Positions 35,197 to 39,959 of a DNA stretch of 64,000 bases are shown here, one piece after another. The DNA is taken from the NCBI RefSeq assembly GCF_012275535.1, contig NZ_JAAVTK010000003.1, forward strand, positions 372,001 to 436,000, written 5' to 3'. A program made the position numbers and the translations under genes. The first letter of the stretch is position 1. Every line of letters starts with the position of its first letter. Under the pieces are notes generated by a model. That model was not told where the DNA came from and did no database searches. It saw only the letters and a program-made list of their open reading frames with translations. Source of the stretch: Hymenobacter artigasi. GTDB lineage: Bacteria; Bacteroidota; Bacteroidia; Cytophagales; Hymenobacteraceae.

Positions 35197-35299
35197 GCCG
35201 TCATGCAGAGCGTAGCGAAGCATCTTTACCGCCACAACTAACCCATCCGATTGGAATGCTGGTGGCGGTAAAGATGCTTCGCTGTGCTCTGCATGACGG
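35197..35299. repeat. Long inverted repeat, family C (copy 1)
   Basis: Arms 35197-35235 and 35262-35299 share TCATGCAGAGCGYAGCGAAG followed by CATCTTTACCGCCAC, with a 26-nt loop. A close relative is at 38561-38669. Confidence 0.88.
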
Positions 35300-35364
35300 T
35301 CTGAAAAAACCGAAATCGAAAAATATTTTTACCCAACTGCTTGCCCATCCCAAAAATTCTCTCG

Positions 35365-35372
35365 TACATTTG
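35365..35372 (+). promoter_or_regulatory. Promoter of the met operon (-7 box)
   Basis: TACATTTG matches TAnnTTTG, with TTG at 35341-35343 giving a 21-bp spacer, close to the Bacteroidota -33/-7 arrangement. Transcription would start near 35378, some 45 nt before the riboswitch. Confidence 0.6.
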
Positions 35373-35423
35373 CCGATACCAAACAGGTACTCCCCGCTAA
35401 CGGTGGGCAGTTTTCAAGTTTTA

Positions 35424-35532
35424 TACAGAAGTGGCGAGAGACTAGGCTCCGTGACCCACTGGCAACCTTCGCAAAACGAAAGGTGCCAATTCCTACCCAC
35501 CCGCAGCTTCGGCCGCGCTGGGACAGATGATT
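35424..35532 (+). promoter_or_regulatory. SAM-I (S-box) riboswitch
   Basis: The conserved S-box core is visible: GAGACTAGGCTCCGTGACCC (35437-35456), then CTGGCAACC (35459-35467), a short stem-loop TTCGCAAAACGAA, GGTGCCAATTCC (35482-35493), a further hairpin CCCGCAGCTTCGGCCGCGCTGGG-like, and closing GACAGATGA. This class binds S-adenosylmethionine and reduces expression of methionine synthesis genes. Here it lies ahead of metY-metX-hom, as expected. The P1 stem is harder to define, so the ends are approximate. No obvious terminator directly follows; instead a small ORF starts 9 nt downstream, so control may act through that ORF or a structure in the 220 nt after it. Confidence 0.85.
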
Positions 35533-35540
35533 CGAGTGCC

Positions 35541-35702
35541 ATGGAAAATCCCTCAACCGCTGCTTTTTTTCTCCCGACTACTCTGGCTGCTTCGTGCGCC
35601 GTGGTGTCGGGTTTCTTCGTTTCGGCCGCTGGCGGCCGGGATGTGGCTTCGCTCTCGTCGCTGCGAATGCGAATGTGCTGTTGCCGCCCGTGTTGTTGCT
35701 AA
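35541..35702 (+). CDS. Candidate cysteine-rich leader peptide
   Basis: An ATG-started frame of 53 codons begins right after the S-box and ends MRMCCCRPCCC-stop. The final 11 codons contain six Cys, all in two triplets, which is far from chance in a region where Cys is otherwise rare. In-frame ATGs at 35667 and 35673 would give an 11- or 9-residue peptide. Cys-rich leader ORFs upstream of sulfur genes are known in Actinobacteria, where ribosome stalling reports cysteine or Cys-tRNA supply; I know of none combined with an S-box in this phylum. Downstream, 220 nt of GC-rich sequence capable of pairing (GGTGGCCC near 35750 with GGGCCACACC near 35801) precedes metY. Function is inferred from position and composition. 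Confidence 0.5.
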   Translation: MENPSTAAFFLPTTLAASCAVVSGFFVSAAGGRDVASLSSLRMRMCCCRPCCC

Positions 35703-37304
<1,602 letters not shown>

Positions 37305-37388: not shown

Positions 37389-37494
37389 GCGGCTTTAGAA
37401 TCAGTGCATCGGCCCGGGCCTCTTCCGTGATGGGAAGAGAGGTGGGAGTGAGAAACTATTGTTCCGGACCGATTCGCTGGTTCTAAAGCGGCGC
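37389..37494. repeat. Imperfect inverted repeat before metX
   Basis: Arms at about 37389-37418 and 37463-37494 (GGCTTTAGAATCAGTGCATC against TTCGCTGGTTCTAAAGC) pair at roughly five of six positions across a 44-nt loop. It lies in the metX leader. Confidence 0.7.
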
Positions 37495-37509
37495 TATTTA
37501 ATTGTATTT

Positions 37510-38538
37510 ATGTCAACCCAACTGTTTGAACTCCCTGACCTGCAGCTGGAAAGCGGCGAAACCCTGACCGGGGCGCACGTAGCCTACCAGACCTGGGGCC
37601 AGCTCAACGAAGACCGCGACAACGTGGTGTGGATATGCCACGCCCTCACGGCCAATGCCGACGTGCTGGCCTGGTGGCCGGGCCTGGTGGGGCCGGGCTG
37701 CTACTACGACCCTTCGGAGTGGTTTATCGTGTGTGCCAACGTATTGGGCTCGTGCTACGGCACTACCGGCCCGCTCGATGCCGACCCGGCCACCGGCCGG
37801 GCGCGCTTCCAGCACTTCCCGCTGCTCAGCATCCGGGACCTGGTGGCGGCGCACGAGGCACTGCGGGAGGAGTTGGAGTTGGCGGATATCAACACGCTGA
37901 TTGGCGGCTCTTTGGGTGGGCAGCAGGCGCTGGAATGGGCCGTGCTGCGCCCCGATTTGTTCGACCATCTGGTTGTCATCGCTACCAATGCCCGGCATTC
38001 GGCCTGGGGAATTGCCTTTAACGAGGCCCAGCGGCTGGCCATTGAGGCCGACCCGACCTATGCCGCCGGCCAGCCCGGCGGGGGCGACGACGGCCTGCGC
38101 GCCGCCCGCGCCATGGCCCTGCTCAGCTACCGCAGCTACGAGGCCTACGCCGAAACCCAGACCGACACCGACACCGACGCGCTGCTGCGCCAGCACCGCG
38201 CCAGCGCCTACCAGCGCTACCAGGGCGACAAGCTGGTGTCGCGCTTCGACGCTTACAGCTACGTGTCATTGAGCCGGAGCATGGACACCCACAACCTCGG
38301 CCGCAACCGGGGCGGGGTGCCGGCAGCGCTGGCCCGCATTGGGGCGCGCACGCTGGTGCTGGGCATCACGTCGGATGTGCTGTTCCCGCTGAGCGAGCAG
38401 CGCGAGCTGGCGGCGCACATTCCGGGGGCCATGTATGCCGAGCTAGACTCGCGCTACGGCCACGACGGCTTTTTGCTGGAAACGGCGGCCATCACGCACT
38501 TTCTGGAGCTGTTTTACGCGCCCACGTTCGTGCATTAA
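37510..38538 (+). CDS. metX: Homoserine O-acetyltransferase
   Basis: 342 residues. It transfers acetyl from acetyl-CoA to L-homoserine, providing the substrate of MetY. The alpha/beta-hydrolase fold has the MetX signature: VWICHALTANADVLAWWPG, CANVLGSCYGTTGP, and the nucleophile elbow TLIGGSLGGQQALEW (Ser134). The catalytic Asp is in GITSDVLFPLSEQ and the His in YGHDGFLLE. The ATG at 37510 is chosen because it gives the family N-terminus (FELPDLQLESGETL); an open frame upstream starting with TTG runs through an inverted repeat. Family members may instead use succinyl-CoA, but the MetY partner argues for acetylation. Confidence 0.95.
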   Translation: MSTQLFELPDLQLESGETLTGAHVAYQTWGQLNEDRDNVVWICHALTANADVLAWWPGLVGPGCYYDPSEWFIVCANVLGSCYGTTGPLDADPATGRARFQHFPLLSIRDLVAAHEALREELELADINTLIGGSLGGQQALEWAVLRPDLFDHLVVIATNARHSAWGIAFNEAQRLAIEADPTYAAGQPGGGDDGLRAARAMALLSYRSYEAYAETQTDTDTDALLRQHRASAYQRYQGDKLVSRFDAYSYVSLSRSMDTHNLGRNRGGVPAALARIGARTLVLGITSDVLFPLSEQRELAAHIPGAMYAELDSRYGHDGFLLETAAITHFLELFYAPTFVH

Positions 38539-38560: not shown

Positions 38561-38669
38561 AGCACATCATGCAGAGCGCAGCGAAGCATGTTTACCGCGT
38601 AACTAATTATTAATAAGGATGATTTACCACTGCGGTAGAGATGCTTCGCTGCGCTCTGCATGACGTGCT
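38561..38669. repeat. Long inverted repeat, family C (copy 2)
   Basis: Arms 38561-38598 and 38632-38669 contain TCATGCAGAGCGCAGCGAAG and its complement, as at 35197-35299. It fills most of the metX-hom gap. Confidence 0.88.
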
Positions 38670-38690: not shown

Positions 38691-39959
38691 ATGGACGTTG
38701 ATAAACAGCCGCTGCGCATCGGCCTGATTGGTTTCGGCTGCGTGGGCCAGGGTTTCTATGACATTGTGCAACAGCAGCCGGACCTGGGCCTGACCGTGGC
38801 GCGCATCGCCGTAAAAAGCCCCACCAAGCCCCGTACCCTGCCCACCGAACACTTCAGCTTTCACGCCGATGAATTGGTAGCCGATTCCACGCTGGACGTG
38901 TTGGTAGAAGTCATCGACGACCCGGCCGAGGCTTTTCGGCTGGTGAGCGCGGCCCTGCGCCAGGGCCGCCGCGTGGCCACGGCCAACAAGGCCATGCTGG
39001 CCCGGCACCTGCCCGAGCTGGTGCAGCTGGAGCAGGATTTTGGCGGTGCGCTGCTGTACGAAGCGGCCGTGTGCGGCAGCATTCCCATCATTCGCACGCT
39101 CGATGGCTACTTCAGCCACGAGCCGCTGCGGGCAGTGCAGGGCATCTTCAACGGCTCGTCGAACTATGTGCTGACGCGCATGAGCGAGGAGGGCTCCGAC
39201 TACGCGGCGGCGCTGGCCGAGGCCCAGGCCAAAGGCTTCGCCGAAACCGACCCCTCGCTGGACATGGGCGCATTTGACCCGCGCTCGAAGGCCGTGATTC
39301 TGGCGGCCCACGCCTACGGGGTTTTGCTGGAAGCTGATGAGGTGCTGAATTTGGGCATCGAAGCAATCAGCGCGGCGGATATTGCTTTCGCGGCGGCGCG
39401 GGGGCAGAAAATCAAGGTAGTAGCGGCCGTGCAGCGCCTGCCCAATGGCCACGTCACGGCGCTGGTTACGCCGCAGCTGCTGGGGCCGGAATCGCCTTTG
39501 TTTACCGTCGAGCACGAGTTTAATGGCGTGGTGATTGACGCCGAATACGCCGGCCCGCAGTTTCTGCGGGGGCGCGGCGCGGGCGGGCATCCCACCGGCT
39601 CGGCAGTGCTGGCCGATGTGCTGGCCCTGCGGCGCGGCTACCGCTACGGCTACGCCAAGCGGGCCAATGCCCCCGAAACGCAGCTGACCCACGCCCTGGA
39701 AATAGACGCCTACCTGCGCCACGCCGACGTAGGCGTGCTACGCGAAGTGCTGACGTGGCTGGAGCTACCCGCCGAAGCCTTGCAAACTGACGCGAACGGG
39801 CCTTATGCCACCGGCCCGGTAGCCCTCCAGCAGCTGTGGGCCTGGCGCCAGGAATTGCGGACCAATAGCCTGTTCATAGCGCGGCGGGGCGCAGTGCGTC
39901 CGCTGAGCGGGGCAGTGCAAACGGTGCAGGTCCGCACCGAGGCAACGGTCGTGGCATAA
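38691..39959 (+). CDS. hom: Homoserine dehydrogenase
   Basis: 422 residues. It reduces aspartate semialdehyde to homoserine with NAD(P)H. The Rossmann motif LRIGLIGFGCVGQGFYDI (6-23), VATANKAMLARHL (about 97) and the catalytic segment GIFNGSSNYVLTRMSEEGSDY...AEAQAKGFAETDPSLDMGAFD are typical; the Lys/Asp residues of the homoserine site are in place. The C-terminal 100 residues lack a clear ACT domain, so feedback control by threonine is not evident. It is not fused to aspartokinase. It follows metX by 150 bp, most of which is an inverted repeat, and supplies homoserine to MetX; asd upstream in the pathway is at 1253 in this window. Confidence 0.95.
   Translation: MDVDKQPLRIGLIGFGCVGQGFYDIVQQQPDLGLTVARIAVKSPTKPRTLPTEHFSFHADELVADSTLDVLVEVIDDPAEAFRLVSAALRQGRRVATANKAMLARHLPELVQLEQDFGGALLYEAAVCGSIPIIRTLDGYFSHEPLRAVQGIFNGSSNYVLTRMSEEGSDYAAALAEAQAKGFAETDPSLDMGAFDPRSKAVILAAHAYGVLLEADEVLNLGIEAISAADIAFAAARGQKIKVVAAVQRLPNGHVTALVTPQLLGPESPLFTVEHEFNGVVIDAEYAGPQFLRGRGAGGHPTGSAVLADVLALRRGYRYGYAKRANAPETQLTHALEIDAYLRHADVGVLREVLTWLELPAEALQTDANGPYATGPVALQQLWAWRQELRTNSLFIARRGAVRPLSGAVQTVQVRTEATVVA

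Follow-up and report, generated by a model that had tools for sequence, protein, structure and literature searches.

Cysteine leader ORFs were predicted in Actinobacteria before cys operons and cbs, and termination by Rho was proposed for them (PMC1262725). Mycobacteria carry polycysteine upstream ORFs (uORFs) that are leaderless (Canestrari 2020, as cited in PMC13236596). Another cysteine uORF, the uORFC-8-2 motif found before cysS in Rhodobacterales, has tandem Cys codons and was read as ribosome-mediated attenuation (PMC8632094). Riboswitches that control the translation of a uORF are described from Mycobacterium tuberculosis, for the M-box/rv1805A and the B12-riboswitch uORFs (PMC12810186, PMC11260477), with Rho-dependent termination as the outcome in the M-box case (PMC12810186). 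Leader-peptide attenuation before amino-acid operons is described for Flavobacterium psychrophilum, without the pairing of an S-box and Cys codons (PMC9723704).

We analysed the metY leader of Hymenobacter artigasi within a window of 64,000 nucleotides (contig NZ_JAAVTK010000003.1, positions 372,001 to 436,000). At this locus an S-box is followed by a short ORF that ends in Cys codons. The locus shares with the actinobacterial leaders the short ORF, Cys runs near the stop, sulfur genes behind and the lack of a conserved intrinsic terminator, but those leaders have no riboswitch in front, come from another phylum and have no evident sequence homology to this one. Whereas the mycobacterial uORFs are leaderless, the ORF studied here lies downstream of the S-box in the same orientation, with a promoter-like motif before the S-box; judged from its sequence, it does not belong to the leaderless type. 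A uORF with tandem Cys codons is common to uORFC-8-2 and this leader, but uORFC-8-2 usually has two Cys, at positions 14 and 15, contains an intrinsic terminator and lacks a riboswitch. The M. tuberculosis uORFs belong to riboswitches with other ligands and have not been described as sensing amino acids by their codons, whereas the uORF here would add a second metabolic input. With the classical S-box attenuators the locus shares the RF00162 aptamer, and the metB-like and hom leaders of the genus share their layout; the leaders with Cys codons differ from these attenuators in that a conserved terminator or antiterminator is missing and the Cys ORF starts right after P1. Each of the parts has precedents in other phyla. 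Our searches of the open-licence literature found no description of an S-box paired with a Cys leader in Bacteroidota; the sequence-only reading of this DNA likewise knew of no such description. The pairing is real, conserved and built from known parts, and its function is predicted.

The metY leader and its genes

The features of the leader and the genes behind it are:

35341..35372, + strand: candidate Bacteroidota-type promoter, TTG at 35341-35343 and TACATTTG at 35365-35372
35418..35533, + strand: SAM-I (S-box) aptamer, Rfam RF00162
35541..35702, + strand: leader ORF of 53 codons with the end MRMCCCRPCCC-stop (ORF list; frame conserved in relatives)
35676..35699, + strand: Cys codon runs TGC TGT TGC - CGC CCG - TGT TGT TGC, adjoining the stop (sequence)
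35925..37304, + strand: metY, O-acetylhomoserine/O-acetylserine sulfhydrylase (PF01053; TIGR01326 671 bits, above cut-off)
37459..38538, + strand: metX-like homoserine O-acetyltransferase (NF001209 332 bits, cut-off 331; TIGR01392 359 bits, below its cut-off of 500)
38691..39959, + strand: homoserine dehydrogenase, hom (PF00742, E 2.4e-50)

The aptamer scored 63.5 bits against the RF00162 gathering score of 44.4 (E 2e-12). It therefore agrees with the family in sequence and structure, with mismatches within P1 in this copy, and RF00162 was the sole family matched in an Rfam scan of the window. Compared with the TAnnTTTG promoter consensus quoted in PMC9723704, TACATTTG matches, and it occurs at the equivalent place in loci L006, L007, L008 and L009; together with the TTG it makes a candidate promoter before the S-box.

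The leader ORF extends from the ATG at 35541 to the TAA ending at 35702, with the translation MENPSTAAFFLPTTLAASCAVVSGFFVSAAGGRDVASLSSLRMRMCCCRPCCC and a 3' end that reads RMRMCCCRPCCC-TAA. Its Cys codons occupy 35676-35684 and 35691-35699, which bears out the earlier count of six Cys codons among the last nine sense codons. The same reading had placed the ORF directly behind the S-box, correctly, at a spacing of 9 nt; we found the ATG 7 nt past the last aptamer base, a trivial difference. The frame is also open in the 5' direction through the aptamer (ORF 35256-35702), so openness alone is weak evidence and it is conservation that points to the ATG at 35541, whose ATGGAA was present in 16 of 16 sequences in an alignment of close relatives. 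The stop codon is separated from metY by 222 nt. The leader peptide had no family match in Pfam or NCBIfam. The locus has the anatomy of a Cys-codon leader, namely a short ORF with a Cys run near its stop that lies before sulfur or cysteine genes.

Cysteine leaders in Hymenobacter and related families

The same genome contains four S-boxes, located before metY, cysH, an amino-acid permease gene and metH. The cysH S-box is followed by a leader reading GTG...RRMCCCMGCS... and the permease S-box by a leader ending ...VAGCCCC-stop; behind the metH S-box there is no Cys-rich leader ORF. To describe the genus we used 80 MetY loci from named genomes, 30 S-box loci and another 40 S-box regions. We grouped them by the gene that follows the S-box and excluded from the counts seven loci in which that gene was unclassified. 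At least four Cys codons within 12 codons were found in 47 of the 48 metY leaders, in all four metY leaders with an intervening peroxiredoxin-like gene, and in every S-box leader before cysH (17/17), the permease gene (7/7) and an ATP-grasp gene (5/5). No S-box leader before metH (0/10), a metB-like gene (0/12) or hom (0/8) had such a run in this genus. Under a stricter threshold of at least four Cys codons within 10 codons, 79 of the 81 metY, cysH, permease and ATP-grasp leaders (the Cys-class leaders) were positive, against none of the 30 metH, metB-like and hom leaders. Dinucleotide shuffles passed the stricter threshold at rates of 5.6% (Cys-class) and 0.4% (metH, metB-like and hom), and the Cys-rich ORF behind the S-box is not a product of chance. 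Because the sequences are related, the Fisher p of 4e-25 for the split between the two groups is a description and not a probability. The exceptions are two metY leaders (L062 and L067) that keep only two Cys and end RMRMCWGCRM-stop.

At six loci (L042, L044, L070, L084, L090 and L092) a gene, peroxiredoxin-like where it was read, lies between the S-box with its Cys leader and metY, so the leader would control that gene first. Another five loci (L037, L039, L158, L164 and L170) have an S-box and a Cys leader before the ATP-grasp gene. The gene is a distant relative of RimK ligases (62 bits, below cut-off) and a candidate for a role in thiol or Cys-peptide metabolism. Cys codons in the cysH and ATP-grasp S-box leaders, for example L156, L165 and L170, are preceded by the conserved DNA segment GCTGTACAGCATGG (peptide AVQHG), which includes the palindrome CTGTACAG.

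Beyond the genus, 23 S-box leaders carried a Cys-rich ORF, and they represent at least eight other families of the order. By downstream gene, these ORFs occurred in 17 of 24 leaders of metY, two of three of cysH, both of those before a NirA/CysI-like reductase gene and one of eight of metX, and in none of the 14 metH S-box leaders of the order. The Cys leader is thus a feature not of metY alone but also of cysH, the NirA/CysI-like reductase, the permease and the ATP-grasp gene. Many leaders of the order are pure poly-Cys adjoining the stop (CCCCCCCC-stop, CICCCCCCCCC-stop), with up to nine Cys. Several more metX leaders of the order end CC or CCC. S-box metX leaders from one family (L229, L241, L243 and L281) end CC, CCC or CCCC-TQ, possibly a weaker form of the same device. 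The metY leaders behind S-boxes in Pedobacter and Pontibacter end CMCCCIQ, CMCCRIY or CMCCCCC, and a Lewinella leader before metY ends CCCCCC-stop with no S-box core matched.

Cys leaders also occur without an S-box, before genes that we named from their sequences rather than by family search. A MFFLSHTCCCCCCC-stop leader directly precedes cysS (L295), and this poly-Cys leader is a natural positive control for the predicted Cys sensing. In another family of the class, three genomes have leaders reading ...NMRMCCCCCC-stop before a PhyH-like dioxygenase gene (L304, L305 and L308), in which MRM again precedes the Cys run.

The sequence-only reading had proposed to compare related metY leaders for conservation. 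In this comparison the Cys run, its reading frame and its place after the S-box were retained in metY leaders of Hymenobacter and beyond; the exact string CCCRPCCC proved to be local and is replaced elsewhere by poly-Cys, CMCCC or CCSACCCCC. This variation bears on the alternative that the Cys-rich peptide itself acts, as a metal- or redox-sensing nascent chain or as a small protein. A precedent is the nascent exported protein of another bacterium that is outlined in PMC9973294 as sensing copper via translational control. We consider this alternative very improbable for the Cys leaders, given that the number and spacing of Cys vary freely (from CCCRPCCC to CCCCCCCC, CMCCCIQ and CCSACCCCC), that the remainder of the peptide is hardly conserved, and that the downstream genes are those of sulfur assimilation and, without an S-box, cysS.

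Coding signature of the leader frame

Among metY leaders the leader frame was open in 50 of 50 sequences, against 22 and 26 for the other two frames. In 13 close relatives, all 13 gaps inside the ORF were multiples of three, and most gaps outside it were not. This coding signature comes with a weak codon-position bias. In the close metY group the minor-allele counts at the codon positions were 114, 121 and 137; the weakness of this bias indicates that the upstream peptide is little constrained and that what persists is the frame with its Cys codons rather than a protein. Cys positions concentrate at the last codons of the leader ORFs, and both Cys codons are in use (TGT 313, TGC 194).

The Cys codons might alternatively be a by-product of an untranslated nucleotide-level element, such as a UGUUGU-rich site for RNA pairing or for a protein. 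One further feature of the locus is relevant here:

35810..35822, + strand: CGGCAGCACGGGC, can pair with the Cys-codon region 35687-35698 in the window's subclade (duplex energy)

In this subclade CCCGUGUUGUUG is able to form a duplex with CARCACGGGC, which lies about 120 nt further 3' and is present in 11 of 13 close relatives. The duplex of CGGCAGCACGGGC with the Cys codons had a z of -0.87 in the window, and there was no general effect across leaders. As a general attenuator, pairing of the Cys codons with an anti-Cys segment farther downstream was rejected, since it is confined to the window's subclade and its mean z is about that of a mid-ORF control. An untranslated element is also hard to reconcile with the mixed use of TGC and TGT, with a frame that stays open and tolerates only indels of multiples of three, and with runs that stop exactly at the stop codon in unrelated families. 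It is the least probable of the explanations that we weighed.

Met makes up about ten times as large a share of the non-Cys residues in the final 14 codons as in the preceding part of the leader, both in the genus (0.183 vs 0.017) and in the order (0.104 vs 0.010; Fisher 2.7e-8). The Met codons next to the Cys run might sense Met supply, which we offer as a suggestion only because some of them could be alternative starts.

Expression platforms and a proposed two-input model

The two groups of S-box leaders differ in what follows the aptamer. The metB-like and hom leaders of Hymenobacter have the textbook S-box layout: a terminator was found in 20 of 20, together with a segment complementary to the 3' strand of P1, the antiterminator (z -3.6 and -2.0). 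The Cys-class leaders contained no P1 complement (mean z 0.35, -0.92, 0.83 and 0.13 in the four main classes) and had terminator-like structures at shuffle rate only. The classical platform of a terminator and a P1-complementary antiterminator is thus not conserved among the Cys-class leaders, and membership in the aptamer family does not depend on it.

For most of the cysH, permease and ATP-grasp leaders, the start codon lay 11 nt past the 3' strand of P1. The distance was 9-10 nt in most metY leaders with P1 located, that is, 21 of 48 by a simple motif, about five of which gave a distance near zero. Outside the genus, Cys-class leaders start roughly 11-18 nt past the A-rich P1 strand. The fixed spacing from P1 to the start and the missing terminator in the Cys-class leaders would suit an aptamer that controls initiation of the uORF, as in the M-box type. 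Folding without ligand (no SAM, no pseudoknot) did not show P1 occluding the start and gave no difference, and is uninformative on SAM gating. Initiation in this phylum is presented in PMC6847099 as dependent on mRNA structure and not on Shine-Dalgarno (SD) pairing, so a P1 stabilised by SAM should impede leader translation. The S-box here probably controls the start of translation at the leader ORF rather than working via a terminator of its own.

The RNA inside and after the leader ORF has three further features:

35573..35622, + strand: hairpin H1 (35573-35611) with a U-rich tail (35612-35622), inside the leader ORF (-21.5 kcal/mol, z -4.3)
35695..35721, + strand: hairpin H2, spanning the last Cys codon and the stop (z -4.8)
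35703..35742, + strand: C-rich, G-poor stretch of rut-like base composition directly 3' of the leader stop

H1 keeps 90% of its pairs in 16 close relatives, with little covariation. By its predicted fold it may be a terminator in the window's subclade that would be melted by translation of the ORF, and as a terminator it would allow an ordinary S-box mechanism there. We rejected H1 as a general S-box terminator, as terminator-like structures occur at shuffle rate in the wider metY leaders. The strength of H1, its U-rich tail and its retention in the 16 close relatives, along with the use of terminators by other S-boxes of the genus, would suit two independent attenuators in tandem, in which the S-box terminates via H1, the Cys leader acts separately downstream and the nearness of the ORF start to the aptamer has no regulatory meaning. 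We regard such an arrangement as unlikely: the Cys-class leaders are without a P1-complementary antiterminator, terminator-like hairpins are no more frequent than in shuffles beyond the close subclade (the seven permease leaders have none from the S-box to the leader stop), and H1 itself sits within the translated ORF.

Folding predicts H2 in 14 of the 16 close relatives. In the metY class, the first 40 nt past the stop have a mean C content of 0.42 and G of 0.17, against 0.27 and 0.33 in the 60 nt before the stop; this excess of C over G after the stop stands out in the metY leaders, is moderate in those of cysH and is lacking (first 40 nt) in the permease and ATP-grasp leaders. An intrinsic terminator after the leader ORF was rejected as a candidate, having been found in four of 48 metY leaders, below the 31% of shuffles. 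A hairpin in a cysH leader (CCCGCTAC..GTAGCGGGTTTTT in L002) was not conserved. No mutually exclusive terminator and antiterminator after the leader ORF took a conserved form across leaders. Termination by Rho is likelier than a conserved intrinsic terminator, and by analogy with the actinobacterial Cys leaders the leader is possibly a Rho-type variant of a Cys-codon attenuator.

We assign a probability of roughly 0.55 to the reading that metY, and at other loci of the genome cysH and the permease gene, are under the control of a leader RNA with two inputs, with SAM gating the ORF, Cys codons sensing supply and termination following. The SAM gating, the stalling and the part played by Rho are what we infer from the anatomy. 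The S-box, whose structure is evident, would bind SAM; because the 3' P1 strand of the aptamer lies where ribosomes would land to begin the leader ORF, bound SAM should lower the translation of this ORF. At low SAM the ORF would be translated up to its terminal Cys codons, which are conserved and often have Met beside them, and a shortage of Cys-tRNA would hold up the ribosome at the stop codon or immediately before it. The stalled ribosome would then cover the stop-codon hairpin and the C-rich stretch and block early, probably Rho-dependent, termination. If the leader were left untranslated, or if the ribosome were released at the stop with Cys plentiful, transcription would terminate before the structural gene. 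The genes would be on when SAM and Cys, and perhaps Met, are low. These comparisons support the proposal of the sequence-only reading that the transcript may respond to both SAM and cysteine.

We hold more tentatively, at somewhat less than even odds, the broader proposal that the S-box uses the Cys (and Met) leader ORF as its expression platform. SAM would set whether the ORF is translated and stalling at specific codons would set the result, so that SAM, cysteine and methionine supply pass through a serial AND gate; the arrangement would extend across Cytophagales and Sphingobacteriales and mark the S-box genes of sulfur assimilation. If true, one small ORF would couple a metabolite aptamer to a sensor of tRNA charging, making a two-input logic element of natural origin, in a phylum with little-studied RNA regulation and ribosomes that are not reliant on Shine-Dalgarno sequences. 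For the genus it gives a rule for reading genomes: an S-box with a poly-Cys leader indicates sulfur-assimilation genes, and an S-box with a terminator indicates metB-like genes or hom.

The metY-metX part of the locus is flanked by two copies (35202-35295 and 38568-38662) of a palindromic intergenic repeat, CATGCAGAGCGTAGCGAAGCATCT, which occurs in both orientations and has four matches in the window against none expected by chance.
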